Under the pieces are notes generated by a model. It made no database searches and had not been told where the DNA came from. It was given only the letters and a program-made list of their open reading frames with translations. Below are positions 36,112 to 42,164 of a stretch of DNA of 64,000 bases, piece after piece. Positions within the stretch are counted from its first letter, which is position 1. The number at the start of each line of letters is the position of its first letter. The translations under genes were made by a program, and so were the position numbers. Origin of the DNA: Oscillospiraceae bacterium (GTDB taxonomy: Bacteria > Bacillota > Clostridia > Oscillospirales > Ruminococcaceae); contig JAFXIC010000020.1 in NCBI GenBank assembly GCA_017533485.1, forward strand, positions 58,567 to 122,566, in the 5' to 3' direction.

Positions 36112-36124
36112 TTGAATCTTGAAG

Positions 36125-36167
36125 AAAGCACCGTTTTCATGCGATTCTGCATAAAAACGGTGCTTTT
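36125..36167 (+). terminator. Intrinsic terminator
   Basis: AAAGCACCGTTTT (36125-36137) pairs exactly with AAAACGGTGCTTT (36154-36166); a small inner stem ATGC/GCAT lies in the loop. The 3' arm runs into four U. It ends the ABC operon. Confidence 0.85.
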
Positions 36168-36222
36168 CCTCCGCCGGACGAGGATGGATGTGCCGGTTAT
36201 GAAACGGAAAGGAAACGAAGAA

Positions 36223-36708
36223 ATGGCGAAACAGCAACAGAAAACCAATGCCATGCGGATACTGGAGCAGAAAAAGCTTCCGCACCGCTGTGAATTTTAC
36301 GAATGTGACGAATTCCACGACGCGATTCAGATTGCCGAAAAGCTCGGCCAGTCTCCCGAACAGACGTTTAAAACCCTGATCTGTCACGGAAAGAGCGGCG
36401 GGTATTATGCGTTTGTGCTTCCGGGAACAGCAACACTCGACCTGAAAAAAGCTGCCGCTGCCGCAGGCGAAAAATCCGTCGAAATGGTAGCAGTCAAGGA
36501 TATCCAGAAGGTTACGGGCTATATCCGCGGCGGCTGTACCGCAATCGGGATGAAGAAGGATTATCCTTGTTTTCTCGACGCTTCGGCGCAGCAGTACGAG
36601 GAGATCTTTATCAGCGGCGGACGGCTGGGTTCGGAAATTATCCTTACGCCGGCGGTCTTTCTGGAGGCAACCGGCGGAACCATGCTTTCGCTGACAATGG
36701 CGGAATAA
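36223..36708 (+). CDS. ybaK: Cys-tRNA(Pro)/YbaK-type aminoacyl-tRNA deacylase
   Basis: 161 aa. ATG 36223 with AAAGGAA about 9 bases upstream; longer in-frame starts exist but would overlap the terminator. The YbaK fold is seen in AMRILEQKKLPHRCEFYECD, PEQTFKTLICHGKSGGYYAF, the LKKAAAAAGEKSVEM helix, GYIRGGCTAIGMKKDYPCFL and ISGGRLGSEIILTP. The enzyme hydrolyses mischarged tRNA, classically Cys-tRNA(Pro). It stands alone between two terminators. Confidence 0.93.
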   Translation: MAKQQQKTNAMRILEQKKLPHRCEFYECDEFHDAIQIAEKLGQSPEQTFKTLICHGKSGGYYAFVLPGTATLDLKKAAAAAGEKSVEMVAVKDIQKVTGYIRGGCTAIGMKKDYPCFLDASAQQYEEIFISGGRLGSEIILTPAVFLEATGGTMLSLTMAE

Positions 36709-36713
36709 AACGA

Positions 36714-36750
36714 AAACTCCGTGTCGGATGAATCGTCCGGCACGGAGTTT
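36714..36750 (+). terminator. Intrinsic terminator of ybaK
   Basis: AAACTCCGTG (36714-36723) pairs with CACGGAGTTT (36741-36750), extended inward by CGGA/TCCG. The U-tract is short (UUU then GAUUUG). Confidence 0.75.
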
Positions 36751-36773
36751 GATTTGTATATGTCCATATATAT

Positions 36774-36825
36774 AAAAAAAGTAGTGGGCATCGGATGTGG
36801 GTGATCACACCCGACGCACCACTTT
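36774..36825 (-). terminator. Intrinsic terminator of the candidate small RNA
   Basis: Read on the minus strand, AAAGTGGTG and the following CGTCGGGTGTG pair with CACATCCGATG and CCCACTACTTT through a long stem with several G-U pairs, followed by seven T (plus-strand A run 36774-36780). Confidence 0.8.
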
Positions 36826-36942
36826 AGGGGGAACATTAGTAAAGTCTGCATGAAATACTGCTCATGCAGCAGGGGCGCTTTTCCGAACTGAAAAGCATTT
36901 CAAAACACGTTGCAGCGTGTGTTGTTGTTCATTTCCTTCATT
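36774..36942 (-). ncRNA. Candidate small RNA of about 170 nt with own promoter and terminator
   Basis: The minus strand has an excellent promoter (36949-36977), no open frame of note, and an intrinsic terminator ending in seven U (36774-36825). Between them are three further perfect hairpins: 36905-36920 (ACACG/CGTGT), 36877-36896 (GCTTTTC/GAAAAGC) and 36846-36869 (CTGCATGA/TCATGCAG). A single-stranded C-run, TTCCCCC on the RNA strand, lies just before the terminator stem (36827-36833). The A-to-C mismatches of the terminator stem on the plus strand become G-U pairs on the minus strand, which supports the minus orientation. It does not resemble 6S RNA, SRP RNA, tmRNA or RNase P RNA as far as can be judged by eye. 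Confidence 0.7.
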
Positions 36943-36948
36943 GACCTT

Positions 36949-36977
36949 ATTATAGCATATAACTTCTAAAAAAGCAA
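36949..36977 (-). promoter_or_regulatory. Promoter of the candidate small RNA
   Basis: On the minus strand: TTGCTT (36977-36972), 17-base spacer, perfect TATAAT (36954-36949) with an extended TGC. Predicted start near 36942. Confidence 0.8.
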
Positions 36978-37006
36978 ATAGGATTCTTTTGATAGGTGTT
37001 ATAAGA

Positions 37007-37025
37007 AAACACATATACTGTGTTT
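37007..37025. promoter_or_regulatory. Operator-like inverted repeat between the small RNA and the cellulase gene
   Basis: AAACACA (37007-37013), 5 bases, TGTGTTT (37019-37025), a perfect inverted repeat of 19 bp total. It lies 30 bp upstream of the small-RNA -35 and 94 bp upstream of the cellulase -35. A second perfect palindrome, GGATATATCC, follows at 37036-37045. Either could bind a regulator of one or both genes. Confidence 0.4.
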
Positions 37026-37118
37026 AAATTCTATCGGATATATCCTATATGGTATCGGTATCCGCCCTGTCACACGCGTTTGATGTATGGATTCTGACCG
37101 GCTTTTTTCAGAAATTGC

Positions 37119-37210: not shown

Positions 37211-39559
37211 ATGTATCGCAAACACCGTGTCGGTGCGTTGGTGATGGCATCGTGCTTATGTACCGCACTCCCCATCACATCCAATCATGCACCTACCGCT
37301 TCCGCTGCTTCTCAGAACTATGCGGAGGCACTCCAGAAATCACTCTTTTTCTATGAGTGTCAGCAGGCAGGCGTTCTGCCTGAATGGAACCGTGTCGAAT
37401 GGCGCGGAGATTCGATCGTAACCGATGAAATCAACGGCGGCTGGTATGACGCCGGTGACCACGCAAAGTTCAATCTGCCGATGGCTTATTCCGCGTCCAT
37501 GCTCGCCTGGGGCCTTTATCAGTATCCCGATGGCGTTGAAAAATACGGCGAGATGCAGAATTATGTCAACAATCTGGAATATGTGCTCGACTATTTCGCA
37601 GCTTGTGATCTCGGCACGGAAGTCGTCATCCAGATCGGAAACGGTACTGTTGACCATACATGGTGGGGTCCTGTCGAGCTGTATGAATACGGTATGGCTG
37701 ACAGCGGTACCAGCATCGAATCTGCACGTGAAGTCACAAAGGTTTCCGGCGGAAGCTCCTGTGTTCTCGGTGAGATGGCTGCCGCACTCGCTTCCGGCTA
37801 TCTCGCGCTCGAAGGCAGAATTGATGAAACCAAGCGCGCGGGCTATCTTGAACACGCAAAGCATCTCTATGATATGGCAGCGTCCGATCCGAGTGATGAT
37901 GTTTATGCGTTGACCAATGCGGCGGCAGGCGGCTTCTATCGTTCTTCCCATTTCTATGATGAGCTGTTCTATTCCGCAAACTGGCTCTACCTCGCAACCA
38001 AGGATGACGGCTATCTCGCGGACGCGAAAAGCTATATCCCCAATCTCGGAAAAATGCTTGGCGAAGGCGATGTGCTCGCATATGGCTGGGGTCACTGCTG
38101 GGATGATACCATGCAGGGCGCAATGCTTCTCTACGCGATCAATACCGGTGAACAGACGGCGCATGTCAAGAAGCATCTCGATCGCTGGGTCAATGGTGAG
38201 GAAGCAAAGATTATTGACGGCGGACTGCGCTGGCTGACCGACTGGGGCTGCCTGCGCTATGCGAATACCGCAGCATTTATCGCCTGTGTCGCAGCAGATA
38301 CCATCTTTAAGGATACTGCTGATGCAGCGAAGTATTTCGAATTCGCGGAAGAACAGATCAACTATACCCTCGGCGATAACCCTGCAAACCGCAGCTATGT
38401 TGTCGGCTACGGTCAGAATTCCCCGAAGAACCCCCACCACAGAACTGCACACGGTTCCTGGAAGAATGCCGAAGCCTATCCGGAAATGAGCCGCCATACT
38501 CTGTATGGTGCACTCGTCGGCGGTCCCGGCTCGAATGGATCCTATGAGGACGACCGCGGAAACTATATCAACAATGAGGTTGCAACCGACTATAACGCCG
38601 GCTTTACCGCAATGCTCTGCCGTATGGTAGACGAATACGGCGGTTCGCCCGATCCGAATTTCCCGCCTGTCGAAGCACATGACGATCCGGAGATCTTTGT
38701 GATGACCGAAGGAAAAACAAGTTCTGCAAGCGGCATGACTGTCAGCTTTAAGGTCACAAACCATACCGCATGGCCGGCAAGAGTTGTCGATAATATCTCC
38801 TTCCGCTATTACATGGATCTCAGCGAGGTGAAGCAGAATGGTGCCGATCCGATGAATGTCACCGTCCGCTGTGACCGTGACCAGTCCGCAATGTATGCTT
38901 CCAGCGGCGTCAAGCCGGCGGAAATTTCTCCGATCCAGCATTACGATGGCGATATCTACTATGTCGAGGTCACTCTCCCCGACGGCAGAGCTGCACTTCC
39001 TGTTTCCGAGGGTATGCATCAGTGTGAGATTCTCCTCGCATTCGTATATCCCGATTACGGCAGCGGCTGGGATGCAGACAATGACTTCTCGAATGCAGAT
39101 ATTCTCGGCGCGTCCGGTGCAGTCATGTCCAAGAATGTTCCGGTTTATATCAACCAGAAGCTCTACTACGGAAAAGAGCCGGATGGCACAGAGGCAGACG
39201 GTCTTGGTAATTCCGGCGATATCACAACCACACCCACGACTACAACTACCACCACTACTACCACTACAACATCTTCTACTACAACTACGACCACCACAAC
39301 AACGACTTCTACCAGTTCGACTTCCAATGACGGACCTGTCGTCGGAAAGTATGGCGATGTCAACTGTGATGATGAAGTGGATATTTCCGATGTCATCCTG
39401 CTCTGCCGCTATGCAGCAGAAGATACCACCGCTGAAATTTCCAAGCTTGGTCTTATGAACGCAGAATGTGACGGAAAGGGCGGCATCAGCGTCGGCGATG
39501 CAACTGTCATTCTCAAATATATTGCACAGCTGATTGACGTCATCAATCCCTATTCGTAA
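37211..39559 (+). CDS. Cellulosomal GH9 cellulase with CBM3c-like module and type I dockerin
   Basis: 782 aa. ATG 37211 follows GGGAGG at 37197-37202; an in-frame upstream start would lie over the promoter. It has a signal peptide (about residues 1-33, cleavage after ASA), then the GH9 catalytic domain (about 36-480) with YDAGDHAKFNLP (Asp80, Asp83 as nucleophile-water base), RSYVVGYGQNSPKNPHHRTA, and the acid Glu in NNEVATDYNAGF. A CBM3c-like module follows (about 490-660, FVMTEGKTSSASGMTVSFKV), then a Thr-rich linker (about 675-705) and a dockerin with two calcium-binding repeats (GDVNCDDEVDISDVILLCRY and AECDGKGGISVGDATVILKY). The enzyme is secreted, binds a scaffoldin cohesin and cuts cellulose. 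It is the strongest clue to a Ruminococcus-type organism. Confidence 0.95.
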   Translation: MYRKHRVGALVMASCLCTALPITSNHAPTASAASQNYAEALQKSLFFYECQQAGVLPEWNRVEWRGDSIVTDEINGGWYDAGDHAKFNLPMAYSASMLAWGLYQYPDGVEKYGEMQNYVNNLEYVLDYFAACDLGTEVVIQIGNGTVDHTWWGPVELYEYGMADSGTSIESAREVTKVSGGSSCVLGEMAAALASGYLALEGRIDETKRAGYLEHAKHLYDMAASDPSDDVYALTNAAAGGFYRSSHFYDELFYSANWLYLATKDDGYLADAKSYIPNLGKMLGEGDVLAYGWGHCWDDTMQGAMLLYAINTGEQTAHVKKHLDRWVNGEEAKIIDGGLRWLTDWGCLRYANTAAFIACVAADTIFKDTADAAKYFEFAEEQINYTLGDNPANRSYVVGYGQNSPKNPHHRTAHGSWKNAEAYPEMSRHTLYGALVGGPGSNGSYEDDRGNYINNEVATDYNAGFTAMLCRMVDEYGGSPDPNFPPVEAHDDPEIFVMTEGKTSSASGMTVSFKVTNHTAWPARVVDNISFRYYMDLSEVKQNGADPMNVTVRCDRDQSAMYASSGVKPAEISPIQHYDGDIYYVEVTLPDGRAALPVSEGMHQCEILLAFVYPDYGSGWDADNDFSNADILGASGAVMSKNVPVYINQKLYYGKEPDGTEADGLGNSGDITTTPTTTTTTTTTTTTSSTTTTTTTTTTSTSSTSNDGPVVGKYGDVNCDDEVDISDVILLCRYAAEDTTAEISKLGLMNAECDGKGGISVGDATVILKYIAQLIDVINPYS
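39224..39325 (+). repeat. ACN triplet repeat coding the Thr-rich linker
   Basis: A run of about 34 codons almost all ACN or TCN, giving the Thr/Ser linker between CBM3c and dockerin. Such repeats are prone to length change. Confidence 0.85.
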
Positions 39560-39568
39560 GATAACCCC

Positions 39569-39605
39569 AAACTGCCGGACTGCAATGCAGTCCGGCAGTT
39601 TTCTT
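39569..39605 (+). terminator. Intrinsic terminator of the cellulase gene
   Basis: AAACTGCCGGACTGC (39569-39583) pairs exactly with GCAGTCCGGCAGTTT (39587-39601), followed by TTCTT. Confidence 0.85.
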
Positions 39606-39644
39606 GTGAGCCGATGAGAAATCATCGGTGATAGGAGACAAAAC

Positions 39645-39685
39645 AAAAGCTCCGTGCTGTACGAGAGATACAGCACGGAGCTTTT
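39645..39685. terminator. Bidirectional terminator between the cellulase gene and the minus-strand unit
   Basis: AAAAGCTCCGTGCTGT (39645-39660) and its exact complement (39670-39685) flank a 9-base loop, with T runs on both strands. It ends the 39695-40315 gene on the minus strand and backs up the cellulase terminator. Confidence 0.85.
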
Positions 39686-39694
39686 TGATCGGAT

Positions 39695-40315
39695 TCAGCG
39701 GACTTCGATCTGTGTAAAGCCGTATTTTTCGAGTGAAACACCCGTCATGTACTGATAGACCTCGACAATCGGTGCAGCATTCAGCCGCAGTCCGTTTCGT
39801 GAGGTATAACCGCCGGTGCGGTCGTGGGCGATGACACAAGCCGGAAGCAGGTCGATTTCTCCATGTGCGCCGGTCATAATCGAGAACATTTCTGCCCAGA
39901 GGGGTTGTTTGGGTTGTTTTCCTTTCCGTAGGTCATTGAGATAATCCCTGACGCGCATCGAATAGCCGTGCTCATTCATAGCGAGGAGCGTGAGATAGGC
40001 GGCGAGCGTCTTTTCGATCAGCCCGATTCGCTTTACCGGTTCATTCTGATAAACGCCGTTCATACGGTGGAAAATAAAGAGTTCTGCGATTGCAGTCGGG
40101 AGGCGGTCGAGTGTTTCGTAGGTCATGTCGAGGAGGATACCGCGGCCTTTGATGATGGTAAAGAAGCTGTCGAGATAGCCGAGCAGCAAGCCTTCTGCGA
40201 TCGCCATATTTCCGAGATTTTCTTTTTCGATCTGCTGGGAGAAGGCTTCCTGATCGAAGCCGTCCAGCCGTTCAAGCATCCGTTTTGCGGATTTGCTTTT
40301 GATTTGAAGCTCCAT
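39695..40315 (-). CDS. Hypothetical cytosolic protein
   Basis: 206 aa on the minus strand; ATG at 40315 with AAAGGA about 9 bases upstream. Mostly helical and soluble with no signal peptide. Visible stretches are KSKSAKRMLERLDGFDQEAF, a central TLDRLPTAIAELFIFHRMNG and a C-terminal VVEVYQYMTG-like part. No catalytic motif or known domain was recognised. It lies 88 bases downstream of the hydrogenase large subunit, separated by a terminator hairpin (40348-40382), so it may be read through at a low level or have its own promoter in that gap. Function unknown. Confidence 0.75.
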   Translation of the reverse strand: MELQIKSKSAKRMLERLDGFDQEAFSQQIEKENLGNMAIAEGLLLGYLDSFFTIIKGRGILLDMTYETLDRLPTAIAELFIFHRMNGVYQNEPVKRIGLIEKTLAAYLTLLAMNEHGYSMRVRDYLNDLRKGKQPKQPLWAEMFSIMTGAHGEIDLLPACVIAHDRTGGYTSRNGLRLNAAPIVEVYQYMTGVSLEKYGFTQIEVR

Positions 40316-40347
40316 TGCGTTGGTTCCTTTCTGGCGGAAGGGAAGAA

Positions 40348-40382
40348 ACAGCCTGTCCCCGAAACGAACGAGGACAGGCTGT
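40348..40382 (-). terminator. Terminator of the hydrogenase operon
   Basis: ACAGCCTGTCC (40348-40358) and GGACAGGCTGT (40372-40382) form an 11-bp perfect stem. On the minus strand it is followed by TTTCTTCCC. It lies 21 bases after the hydrogenase large-subunit stop. Confidence 0.75.
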
Positions 40383-40403
40383 CATTCACCTGAAATTCAG
40401 ATC

Positions 40404-42164
40404 TCAGAAGTTTACTTTACGAGCGACATAAGTAGTATGAAGAATCTCATGCGCCTTATGGCCGCCGATTTCGCCGAGGTACTCGTCGTAGAGTGCCTTC
40501 ACAGCAGGGTTATCCTGAGACTTACGGAGCGTCATTGCAGCGTCCTGATCATAGAGAGCCTTTGCGCGGAGTGCACGAAGGTCAGTAAAGTTTCGGACGG
40601 ATGCAGGCTGAATGGGCTGACCGCCGCCGTTGACGCAGCCGCCGGGACAAGCCATGACCTCGATGAAGGTGTAGTCAGCTTCGCCGGCACGGATCTTATC
40701 CATCAGCTTACGAGCATTTGCAAGACCGCTGACGACAGCAACCTTAACGGTGAGATCGCCGACAGTATAGCTTGCTTCCTTGATTGCCTCGGTACCGCGG
40801 ACTTCCTTGAAGTCGAGCTTATCAGCCGGGAGGGTTTCACCGGAGATCTTCTCGACAGCAAAACGAAGTGCAGCTTCCATAACGCCGCCGGTTGCACCGA
40901 AGATGAGGCCGGCACCGGTGAAGATACCGAGCGGATCATCAAACTTCTCATCCGGCAGAGCATTGAAGTCGATACCGGCGCGGTCGATCATTCTGCCGAG
41001 CTCACGGGTAGTGAGTGCGAAGTCGATGTCAGGAACACCGGCAGCAGACTGATCTTCTCTGCCCATCTCGAACTTCTTCGCGGTACAGGGCATGATCGAA
41101 ACGGAAACGATATCCTTCGGATCCCAGCCCATCTTCTCTGCGAAGTAGGTCTTTACGACAGCACCGAACATCTGCTGCGGGCTCTTGCAGGAGGAGAGGT
41201 TCGGGATGAGATCGGGATAGTAGTGTTCACAGAACTTGACCCAACCGGGGGAGCAGGAGGTGATCATCGGGAGCGTACCGCCGTTTGTGACGCGCTCGAT
41301 CAGCTCAGTACCCTCTTCGAGGATGGTGAGGTCAGCAGTAAAGTTGGTATCGAAAACGAAATCGAAACCGAGGCGCTTGAGTGCAGCAACCATTTTTCCT
41401 TCGACATTGGTGCCGATGGGGTTGCCGAAGCATTCGCCGAGACCTGCACGAACAGAAGGTGCGGTCTGAACGACAACGTGCTTTGTCGGGTCAGCGATTG
41501 CAGCAAAGACATCCTCGATGAAGTCTTTTTCGGAGAGTGCGCCGGTGGGACATACGTTGATGCACTGGCCGCAGGATACGCAGGCAGTTTCGCCCAGACC
41601 CTTTTCGAATGCAGAACCGATGTGGGTAGAGAAGCCGCGATCGTTCGCACCGATGACGCCGATACCCTGTGTATGCTCACAAACAGCGGAGCAGCGGCGG
41701 CAGAGGATACACTTATTGTTATCGCGGTACATATGAGCAGCAGTCTGGTCGATGGCATAGGTATTGGAAGCGCCATCGTAGAAGCCTGCATCCTCGATAC
41801 CGAGATCATTTGCGAGGTTCTGAAGTTCACAGTTCTTACTTCTGACGCAGGACAGGCACTTTCTGTCGTGGTTGGAGAGAATGAGCTGCATTGTCTTTCT
41901 GCGGGAATCGAGAACCTTCGGGGAATTGGTAAGAATCTCCATGCCCTCGGAAACGGGATATACGCAGGAAGCGACCAAACGGAAGCCTCTGCCCTCGTTT
42001 GCCTCAACGATACACATACGGCAGGCGCCGATCTCGTTGATTTCCTTCAGATAACAGAGGGTGGGGATGGTTACGCTTGCGGCACGGGCGGCTTCGAGGA
42101 TTGTAGAACCTTTCGGAACTGCAACAGCCTGACCGTTAATTTTTACATTTACCATATCACTCAT
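40404..42164 (-). CDS. hydA: [FeFe] hydrogenase catalytic subunit (HndD/HydA type)
   Basis: 586 aa; ATG 42164 with AAGGAGG 9 bases upstream. Domains in order: N-terminal [2Fe-2S] domain (Cys37, 48, 51, 67), His-ligated [4Fe-4S] site (His99, Cys103, 106, 112), two ferredoxin-type clusters (Cys152-162 and 195-205), then the H-cluster domain with TSCSPGWVKF (Cys304), MPCTAKKFE (Cys360) and EVMACPGGCVNGGGQP (Cys506, Cys510). This is the full set of ligands for an active enzyme. The first H-cluster motif reads TSCSP instead of the commonest TSCCP, a known variant. It evolves or takes up H2 in the cytosol. Last gene of the three-gene operon. Confidence 0.97.
   Translation of the reverse strand: MSDMVNVKINGQAVAVPKGSTILEAARAASVTIPTLCYLKEINEIGACRMCIVEANEGRGFRLVASCVYPVSEGMEILTNSPKVLDSRRKTMQLILSNHDRKCLSCVRSKNCELQNLANDLGIEDAGFYDGASNTYAIDQTAAHMYRDNNKCILCRRCSAVCEHTQGIGVIGANDRGFSTHIGSAFEKGLGETACVSCGQCINVCPTGALSEKDFIEDVFAAIADPTKHVVVQTAPSVRAGLGECFGNPIGTNVEGKMVAALKRLGFDFVFDTNFTADLTILEEGTELIERVTNGGTLPMITSCSPGWVKFCEHYYPDLIPNLSSCKSPQQMFGAVVKTYFAEKMGWDPKDIVSVSIMPCTAKKFEMGREDQSAAGVPDIDFALTTRELGRMIDRAGIDFNALPDEKFDDPLGIFTGAGLIFGATGGVMEAALRFAVEKISGETLPADKLDFKEVRGTEAIKEASYTVGDLTVKVAVVSGLANARKLMDKIRAGEADYTFIEVMACPGGCVNGGGQPIQPASVRNFTDLRALRAKALYDQDAAMTLRKSQDNPAVKALYDEYLGEIGGHKAHEILHTTYVARKVNF

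Follow-up and report, generated by a model that had tools for sequence, protein, structure and literature searches.

A predicted small RNA beside a GH9 cellulase gene carries a conserved module that may pair with ribosome-binding sites of fibre-degrading genes

We analyzed a stretch of 64,000 nucleotides (nt) from an Oscillospiraceae bacterium (assembly GCA_017533485.1, contig JAFXIC010000020.1, positions 58,567 to 122,566; hereafter the window), in which a sequence-only reading had pointed to an undescribed-looking structured small RNA on the minus strand, divergent from a GH9 cellulase gene. We found that the 3' end of this predicted RNA is conserved across the genus, and that the stretch conserved best is the complement of Shine-Dalgarno (SD) sites in front of carbohydrate-active enzyme (CAZyme) genes. 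The reading we favor, with moderate confidence, is that of a base-pairing RNA that would mask the ribosome-binding sites of a fibre regulon, the window holding a dedicated copy. Such a regulatory RNA would be specific to the genus, and its working part would be a 3' module in which a putative anti-SD seed, GUUCCCCCUAA, stands directly before a terminator hairpin. The sequence-only reading had proposed control of the divergent GH9 gene or of other fibre-degrading genes; the second fits better, because the GH9 neighbor is a poor match to the seed.

Conservation and genomic settings of the 3' module

Comparisons were made within a set of 30 genomes of the genus, labeled G000 (the genome holding the window), G001 and so on. 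A DNA search with the window locus returned one homologue in G012, where a GH9 gene again lies divergently, and one paralogue in G000. Good alignment among the copies is limited to the promoter block and the final ~70 nt, and the middle of the RNA shows little conservation even in the two copies that stand beside GH9. Alignment of 26 copies (28 matches minus two near-copies) defined the module as GUUCCCCCUAAGUGGCAGCGUCGG, a variable apex and a U-tract. With a covariance model refined on these 26 sequences, seed and terminator hairpin were found in 27 of the 30 genomes at E <= 0.05; the module of G015, which reached E 3.6e-4 only, was counted because of its position. Four weaker second matches (G021 C198, G003 C3, G012 C15, and G005 C44, the last overlapping the antisense of an anti-seed site) were excluded from the copy count. 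A search of 297 genomes of the family, five of them from the genus, yielded three weak matches (G049, G202, and G228; E 0.003-0.004) in the remaining 292; the G202 match is the antisense of an ordinary gene start and hence due to chance. An exact-pattern scan of one genome per species (84,980 species) returned 23 stretches, all in metagenome-assembled genomes titled Ruminococcus, Oscillospiraceae, Clostridia, or Clostridiales.

The compensatory changes that the sequence-only reading had proposed to look for are visible across the 26 sequences. The stem is paired in 92% of cells, and neither this value nor the covariation score was reached by any of 500 shuffles. The structure was derived from the same sequences in which covariation was scored, and the covariation supports the stem without proving it. 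Because the 3' module is conserved genus-wide with covariation, the locus appears to be more than chance.

In all 27 genomes the module lies, by coordinates, within ~400 nt upstream of one gene and on that gene's strand. In G000 the product of this gene has CBM4_9, dockerin, and polysaccharide deacetylase (CE4) domains, a cellulosomal esterase; the CE4 genes of the other genomes were identified as BLAST relatives of it. As to the three genomes that lack the module, one has a distant CE4 relative only (G010), one no full-length copy (G011), and one a copy cut at a contig end (G019). The promoter block and a variable leader precede the module in 20 of the 27 (16 by search and four by reading: G012 C46, G013, G014, and G015). 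In seven of the 27 a dockerin gene lies between promoter and module, and its stop codon precedes the seed by a few bases. Six of the seven have this gene whole, as a GH10 xylanase gene (by Pfam for G008 and G029, by similarity for the other whole cases), and the G027 contig holds only its end. By reading, the promoter block also precedes the linked GH10 gene in G005, G008, G021, G022, G026, and G029. In a tree of the esterases the seven genomes with the GH10 arrangement fall in a group of 13 together with six that lack it; the forks within this group are not resolved, so gains and losses of the arrangement cannot be counted.

Two cis mechanisms were considered for these transcripts. An antiterminator in the leader is thought unlikely, since the leader varies in sequence and length or is replaced, in seven genomes, by the dockerin open reading frame (ORF; by reading). 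The same variability bears on a riboswitch or leader attenuator, for which a conserved aptamer or antiterminator would be expected ahead of the expression platform. Masking by the C-run of the SD that belongs to the CE4 gene itself would involve ~5 pairs only (CCCCU with AGGGG) and is kept as a weak possibility; the CE4 SD in G000 and G012 is AAGAGG, which does not fit the C-run.

The upstream promoter block, ~45 nt long and most commonly of the form ACCATATGTTTTTGCTTATGCCCCCTATCAGGAAAAACCTATTTGC, is conserved before leaders and linked GH10 genes, and its repeated CTAT units suggest an activator site. By eye, a second hairpin seems to lie 3' of the module in several genomes; its loop in G009 holds the C-rich CUCCCCUUCA, and the CE4 leaders of G000 and G012 contain CCCCUUCA as well. 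In G026, a direct repeat of about 85-90 nt is visible by eye between module and esterase gene.

G000 and G012 form one clade, and each has a CE4-linked copy plus an orphan copy without a downstream gene. Judged from these comparisons, the predicted window RNA is an orphan duplicate of an element that usually stands upstream of a cellulosomal CE4 gene. Both orphan modules retain the seed, and their identity over 63 nt is 97%; for the GH9 gene the DNA identity between the two genomes is 72%, and for the CE4 locus 70%. The CE4-linked modules of G000 and G012 score 54.3 and 42.3 bits, against 67.6 and 67.3 bits for the orphans, a pattern of scores and identity that would agree with the orphan copy having taken over the trans function. 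G013 and G014, placed outside G000/G012 at a modestly supported fork, have GUUCCCCCUA too; the seed therefore looks ancestral. The GH9 neighborhood is rearranged between G012 and the window, a 206-amino-acid (aa) gene and a hydrogenase-like gene lying on opposite sides of GH9 (window 37211-42164), yet the RNA stayed with GH9.

Complementarity of the seed to Shine-Dalgarno sites

The seed columns are invariant or nearly so in the 26 copies, whereas the leaders vary, and the fibre-degrading genes of the genus have SD sites to which the conserved UUCCCCCUAA is complementary. The linked GH10 gene itself has GGGGG in its SD in six of six genomes, complementary to the C-run of UUCCCCCU. We searched the genus genomes for UUAGGGGGAA located 2-9 nt before an ATG and obtained 46 matches, against nine for the reversed control. 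Removal of one duplicate and four module antisense matches left 41, and removal of four ORFs shorter than 60 aa left 37, of which 29 encode CAZyme, carbohydrate-binding, or dockerin proteins. The families include GH43, GH10, GH95, GH2, GH97, GH127, rhamnogalacturonan lyase, pectate lyase, pectinesterase, and esterases. The other eight are two truncated-looking copies of listed types (L257, L277), two CotH-domain proteins (L260, L232), one ABC permease (L275), and three proteins without family (L249, L258, L268). The sites are mostly on genes distant from the module; unlinked GH10 genes on other contigs of G000, G001, G002, and G009, found by pattern, also have UUAGGGGGAA.

Among the sites classified, the enrichment goes with this SD variant and with the genus. 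For the one-base control UUAGGAGGAA, sampled as 30 loci, one per genome, out of a longer list and reduced by two truncated ORFs below 60 aa, one of 28 ORFs was CAZyme-type (two if an intracellular GH94 is counted), and most were housekeeping genes. Outside the genus, 29 loci from a longer list left 22 ORFs after five below 60 aa and two lost to the position filter were removed (16 scanned by Pfam, six FtsZ look-alikes judged by eye), and none of the 22 was CAZyme-type; there UUAGGGGGAA precedes ftsZ, aroC, an ABC ATPase gene, and others. Fisher tests gave p 3.7e-10 against UUAGGAGGAA (6.7e-9 with GH94) and 8.3e-10 against the outside set. Collapsed by hand to gene families, the comparison stands at 13/18 versus 1/19 (p 2.9e-5; 1.9e-4 with GH94). 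The UUAGGGGGAA-type SD itself also occurs outside the genus, 119 of the 297 family genomes (five of which are of the genus) having a match. The ftsZ genes of several other genera of the family have the SD TTAGGGGGAA, and no module was found there.

The shorter AGGGGGAA gave a similar picture in G000, where five of eight ORFs preceded by it encode CAZyme or dockerin proteins (GH10, GH43, GH9, GH5-dockerin, and a dockerin protein), against one of the 20 scanned for AGGAGGAA (p 0.003; 30 of 74 control sites fetched, 26 ORFs of at least 60 aa). We also fetched GH43 genes by domain rather than by SD. GGGGG was present in 14 of 19 secreted and none of three intracellular GH43 genes, and AGGGGGA in 11 of the 19; eight of 30 loci without a credible start were left out, five genes are also in the pattern sets, and start-picking favored a purine-rich upstream stretch, alike for all genes. 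Within the window, AGGGGGAA has three matches: the antisense of the RNA itself, one inside a reading frame, and one at the window's last bases.

Pairing energies separate the GH9 neighbor from the chosen targets. Its SD, AAAAAAGGGAGG, pairs with the seed at -8.6 kcal/mol, weaker than the mean of -10.0 for 30 control SDs, which counts against the proposal that the RNA regulates this gene. Chosen target sites reach -15.3 to -18.4 kcal/mol, values that are not independent, as the sites were picked by the seed. Duplex energies computed with the whole RNA gave no separation of targets from controls (mean -25.6 and lowest -37.4 for the controls), because that calculation ignores the RNA's own structure.

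In the CE4-linked module of G000 (C55) the seed has changed to UUUCCCCUAA; the matching SD UUAGGGGAAA, with four G, stands before a GH43 gene of that genome (C76:8205). TTAGGGGAAA is carried by six of 370 loci, four of which are that CE4-linked module itself.

The RNA locus in the window

Coordinates of the predicted RNA, its parts, and its neighbors are collected in the table below.

Features of the predicted RNA locus and neighboring genes (window coordinates)
Feature	Position	Strand	Basis or remark
Predicted small RNA, ~168 nt	36942-36775	minus	predicted start and terminator; G012 homologue also beside GH9
Extended -10 box TGCTATAAT	36949..36957 (TATAAT 36954-36949)	minus	sequence; kept in relatives
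Promoter upstream block (TATATGTGTTTTC...CCTATCA...AATCCTATTTGC)	36974..37017	minus	alignment, 3 copies; common to CE4-gene leaders of relatives
Hairpin 1	36905..36920	minus	predicted fold
Hairpin 2	36877..36896	minus	predicted fold
Hairpin 3	36846..36869	minus	predicted fold
Putative seed GUUCCCCCUAA, complementary to UUAGGGGGAA SD sites	36824..36834	minus	conserved columns, 26 copies; anti-SD enrichment
Terminator hairpin, 17 pairs	36783..36823	minus	fold; related hairpin covaries across 26 sequences
U-tract of terminator, 7 U	36774..36780	minus	sequence
Divergent GH9-CBM3 cellulase gene, poor seed match	37211..39559	plus	Pfam; seed energy -8.6 kcal/mol
Convergent aminoacyl-tRNA editing-domain (YbaK-like) gene	36112..36708	plus	Pfam
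Terminator of the YbaK-like gene	36714-36750		terminator scan

The perfect extended -10 (TGC-TATAAT) reported by the sequence-only reading is present. Its -35 box was correctly placed at 17 nt, but the box itself, TTGCTT, is weak, matching three of six consensus positions. Promoter and terminator of the RNA are both missing from the listing of a consensus scan, and conservation of the promoter region in relatives is the better evidence for a promoter than a consensus match. The window copy thus has its own predicted promoter and terminator and no gene downstream on the minus strand, and the same holds for the G012 orphan.

The minimum-energy fold of the minus strand has the four hairpins and seven-U terminator that had been described, at -61.2 kcal/mol (z -5.58), a value equaled by none of 200 shuffles. 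The plus strand folds less well (-55.8 kcal/mol, z -2.98), which is consistent with the earlier remark that stem mismatches become G-U pairs on the minus strand only. The absence of an open frame was nearly right: a frame of 13 codons occupies the predicted 5' end (36941-36900). By eye, the G012 homologue has its sequence in the first codons only, and a leader peptide was set aside on these grounds. The GH9 neighbor had been called dockerin-bearing; its GH9 and CBM3 domains are found by Pfam, whereas the C-terminal dockerin gave no Pfam call at E <= 0.001 and is visible by eye as dockerin-like repeats.

No Rfam 15 family reached the gathering score in the window or in the loci of 14 relatives, so that 6S RNA, named beforehand as the case that would overturn the proposal, and every other Rfam family were ruled out at that score. 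With E up to 10, the region 36700-37060 gave nine matches, all below gathering and none to 6S RNA; NrrF, AaHKsRNA41, mir-9338, and preQ1-II were among them and lie far under their cut-offs. The window has no tRNA or tmRNA. The RNA, itself a prediction, therefore still looks undescribed, and in the open-licence literature we found no account of fibre-degrading or cellulosomal genes being coordinated by a small RNA in Ruminococcus-type bacteria.

Candidate mechanism, rival explanations, and known systems

How might such an RNA work? In the relatives the module stands at the end of the leader of the CE4 gene, or follows a GH10 gene set between promoter and module, and transcripts stopping at the hairpin would have the seed at their end, so that they might serve as small RNAs. 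In the G000/G012 lineage, promoter and module were duplicated beside GH9 to give a standalone RNA, presumably transcribed from its own promoter. The seed may then pair in the cell with the AGGGGGAA-type SD of mRNAs for secreted plant-cell-wall enzymes (GH10, GH43, GH9, GH5, pectin enzymes, and dockerin proteins), block ribosome binding, and lower translation. By analogy with icaR of Staphylococcus aureus, masking of the SD and reduced translation are the most likely outcome. The control would serve as feedback or set priorities, and would be coupled to the promoter of the xylan-esterase/xylanase transcript.

A wider proposal, which we put forward tentatively, is that the whole genus has an RNA-controlled fibre regulon, in which a marked SD (AGGGGGAA, not AGGAGGAA) lets a single anti-SD module throttle many families of secreted enzymes; the module would be released from the xylan-esterase leader or the 3' end of the linked xylanase gene, and in one lineage the module would have been duplicated into a dedicated small RNA, the orphan, before the original cis seed changed. 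If true, one conserved 11-nt sequence would predict which enzyme genes are under shared post-transcriptional control in a fibre-degrading gut genus, AGGGGG versus AGGAGG would be a simple signature for finding targets in its genomes, and an RNA regulator that began in an mRNA leader or 3' end would have become a gene of its own.

Several observations weigh against masking of ribosome-binding sites by the RNA. The predicted fold pairs the window seed in part with the RNA's own 5' end, and the seed's mean unpaired probability is 0.39, compared with 0.60 over 30 folded copies, most of them folded as 120 nt plus the module. Strict conservation extends over the 5' arm of the hairpin, which pairing with an SD does not need. 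As to the stem, two of the five covariation measures are weaker: six of 12 pairs are changed on both sides, a count reached by 10 of 500 shuffles, the variety of pair types is reached by 95 of 500, and part of the changes in the outer three pairs is a one-base register shift in the alignment. The 29 CAZyme-type matches include orthologues, and three of the eight AGGGGGAA genes of G000 do not look fibre-related (by eye, a response regulator, a zinc-ribbon protein, and a phosphofructokinase). UUAGGGGGAA before ATG has no match in nine of the 30 genomes, six of which carry the module (G003, G007, G014, G018, G023, and G027); the genus-wide counts cover the full UUAGGGGGAA only, and the GH43 genes of G003 have the shorter AGGGGGAA sites. 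G012, which also carries the orphan, has a single match, to the antisense strand of its own module, and so no full 10-nt target. With regard to the hand-over, the orphan was found in two genomes only, and the CE4-linked modules of G013, G014, and G015 also score low (44.1, 50.2, and 29.6 bits); since these genomes have no orphan, the drift of the cis modules in G000 and G012 need not stem from duplication. The usual position of the module just upstream of CE4 would fit a cis role as well.

A purely cis element, whether attenuator, terminator, or RNA-processing hairpin of the CE4 or GH10-CE4 transcript, would set read-through or mRNA stability, as stem-loops do in the cip-cel operon of R. cellulolyticum, and would make the window copy a relic of duplication. 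The module offers it a good terminator hairpin on the same strand as CE4 in 27 of the 30 genomes, lying between dockerin gene and CE4 in seven, and stem-loop control of cellulosomal stoichiometry has been described (PMC4423207, PMC10311766). We nevertheless consider it unlikely, though well worth keeping in mind: an orphan without a downstream gene keeps its seed and is 97% identical between species whose neighboring genes are ~72% identical, a terminator needs no invariant GUUCCCCCUAA ahead of its stem, and the match of the module to SDs of CAZyme genes elsewhere would be left unexplained. That match could be coincidental if the AGGGGGAA SD of these genes has another cause, such as translation strength or a binding protein; any C-rich stretch resembles an anti-SD, and genomes outside the genus have this SD too, ftsZ being one gene preceded by it. 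Coincidence seems improbable to us, as the match spans 8-10 nt of a nearly invariant stretch, three of three intracellular GH43 genes of the genus lack this SD, and among classified sites the variant tracks CAZymes only in the RNA-bearing genus, although other genera may own fewer CAZymes.

Two further explanations have little to recommend them. Cis regulation of the divergent GH9 gene, through promoter interference or pairing with its mRNA, would suit the head-to-head layout in G000 and G012 and is very improbable: there is no overlap between the two predicted transcripts, pairing of the seed with the GH9 SD is weaker than the mean for control SDs, and among module neighborhoods the GH9 cluster is listed at the two orphan loci only. 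Chance hairpins or a non-functional intergenic terminator might account for the poorly conserved middle of the RNA; they are scarcely credible beside the fold z-score, the conserved promoter block, and a genus-wide module with covariation.

The masking RNA that we favor has its closest parallel in the icaR mRNA of S. aureus, where UCCCCUG in the 3' untranslated region pairs with a UAGGGGG SD and blocks translation, according to PMC3868564. Seed and target letters are nearly identical in the two systems, and in the GH10-CE4 arrangement the seed follows just after the GH10 stop codon, so that a 3' motif complementary to the SD of the same mRNA is found in six of six GH10-linked relatives, a feature that does not concern the window copy. 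Unlike icaR, which involves one gene, the matching SDs here are on many genes, and the module occurs as leader element and standalone RNA too, known from sequence alone. The same paper notes a UCCCC motif in several small RNAs of S. aureus (PMC3868564). Like RsaE and the other UCCC-motif RNAs of that species, the candidate has a putative C-rich seed against SD sites, in another host and with other targets, and it reaches the gathering score of no Rfam family. LhrC of Listeria, as described in PMC4132741, comprises multicopy small RNAs whose CU-rich sites bind target mRNA and impede translation; the several copies are shared, and a sequence relation was judged by the Rfam search only.

The stem-loops between cellulosomal genes of the Ruminiclostridium cellulolyticum cip-cel operon also affect expression and differ in that they act on the processing and stability of their own transcript, and the portions consulted speak of no seed that would match other genes (PMC4423207, PMC10311766). 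GibS of Bacteroides thetaiotaomicron, an intergenic small RNA linked to carbohydrate metabolism, pairs at start codons (PMC7366714). It too is an intergenic small RNA of a gut polysaccharide degrader, and it differs, in what is described there, by a seed in an unstructured 5' region, few targets, and no C-run before the terminator. Its host belongs to a different phylum. With C-rich-seed small RNAs the candidate shares complementarity to the SDs of a coherent gene set (29/37, against 1-2/28 and 0/22), and with standalone trans-encoded small RNAs the window and G012 orphans share a predicted promoter and terminator of their own without a downstream gene.
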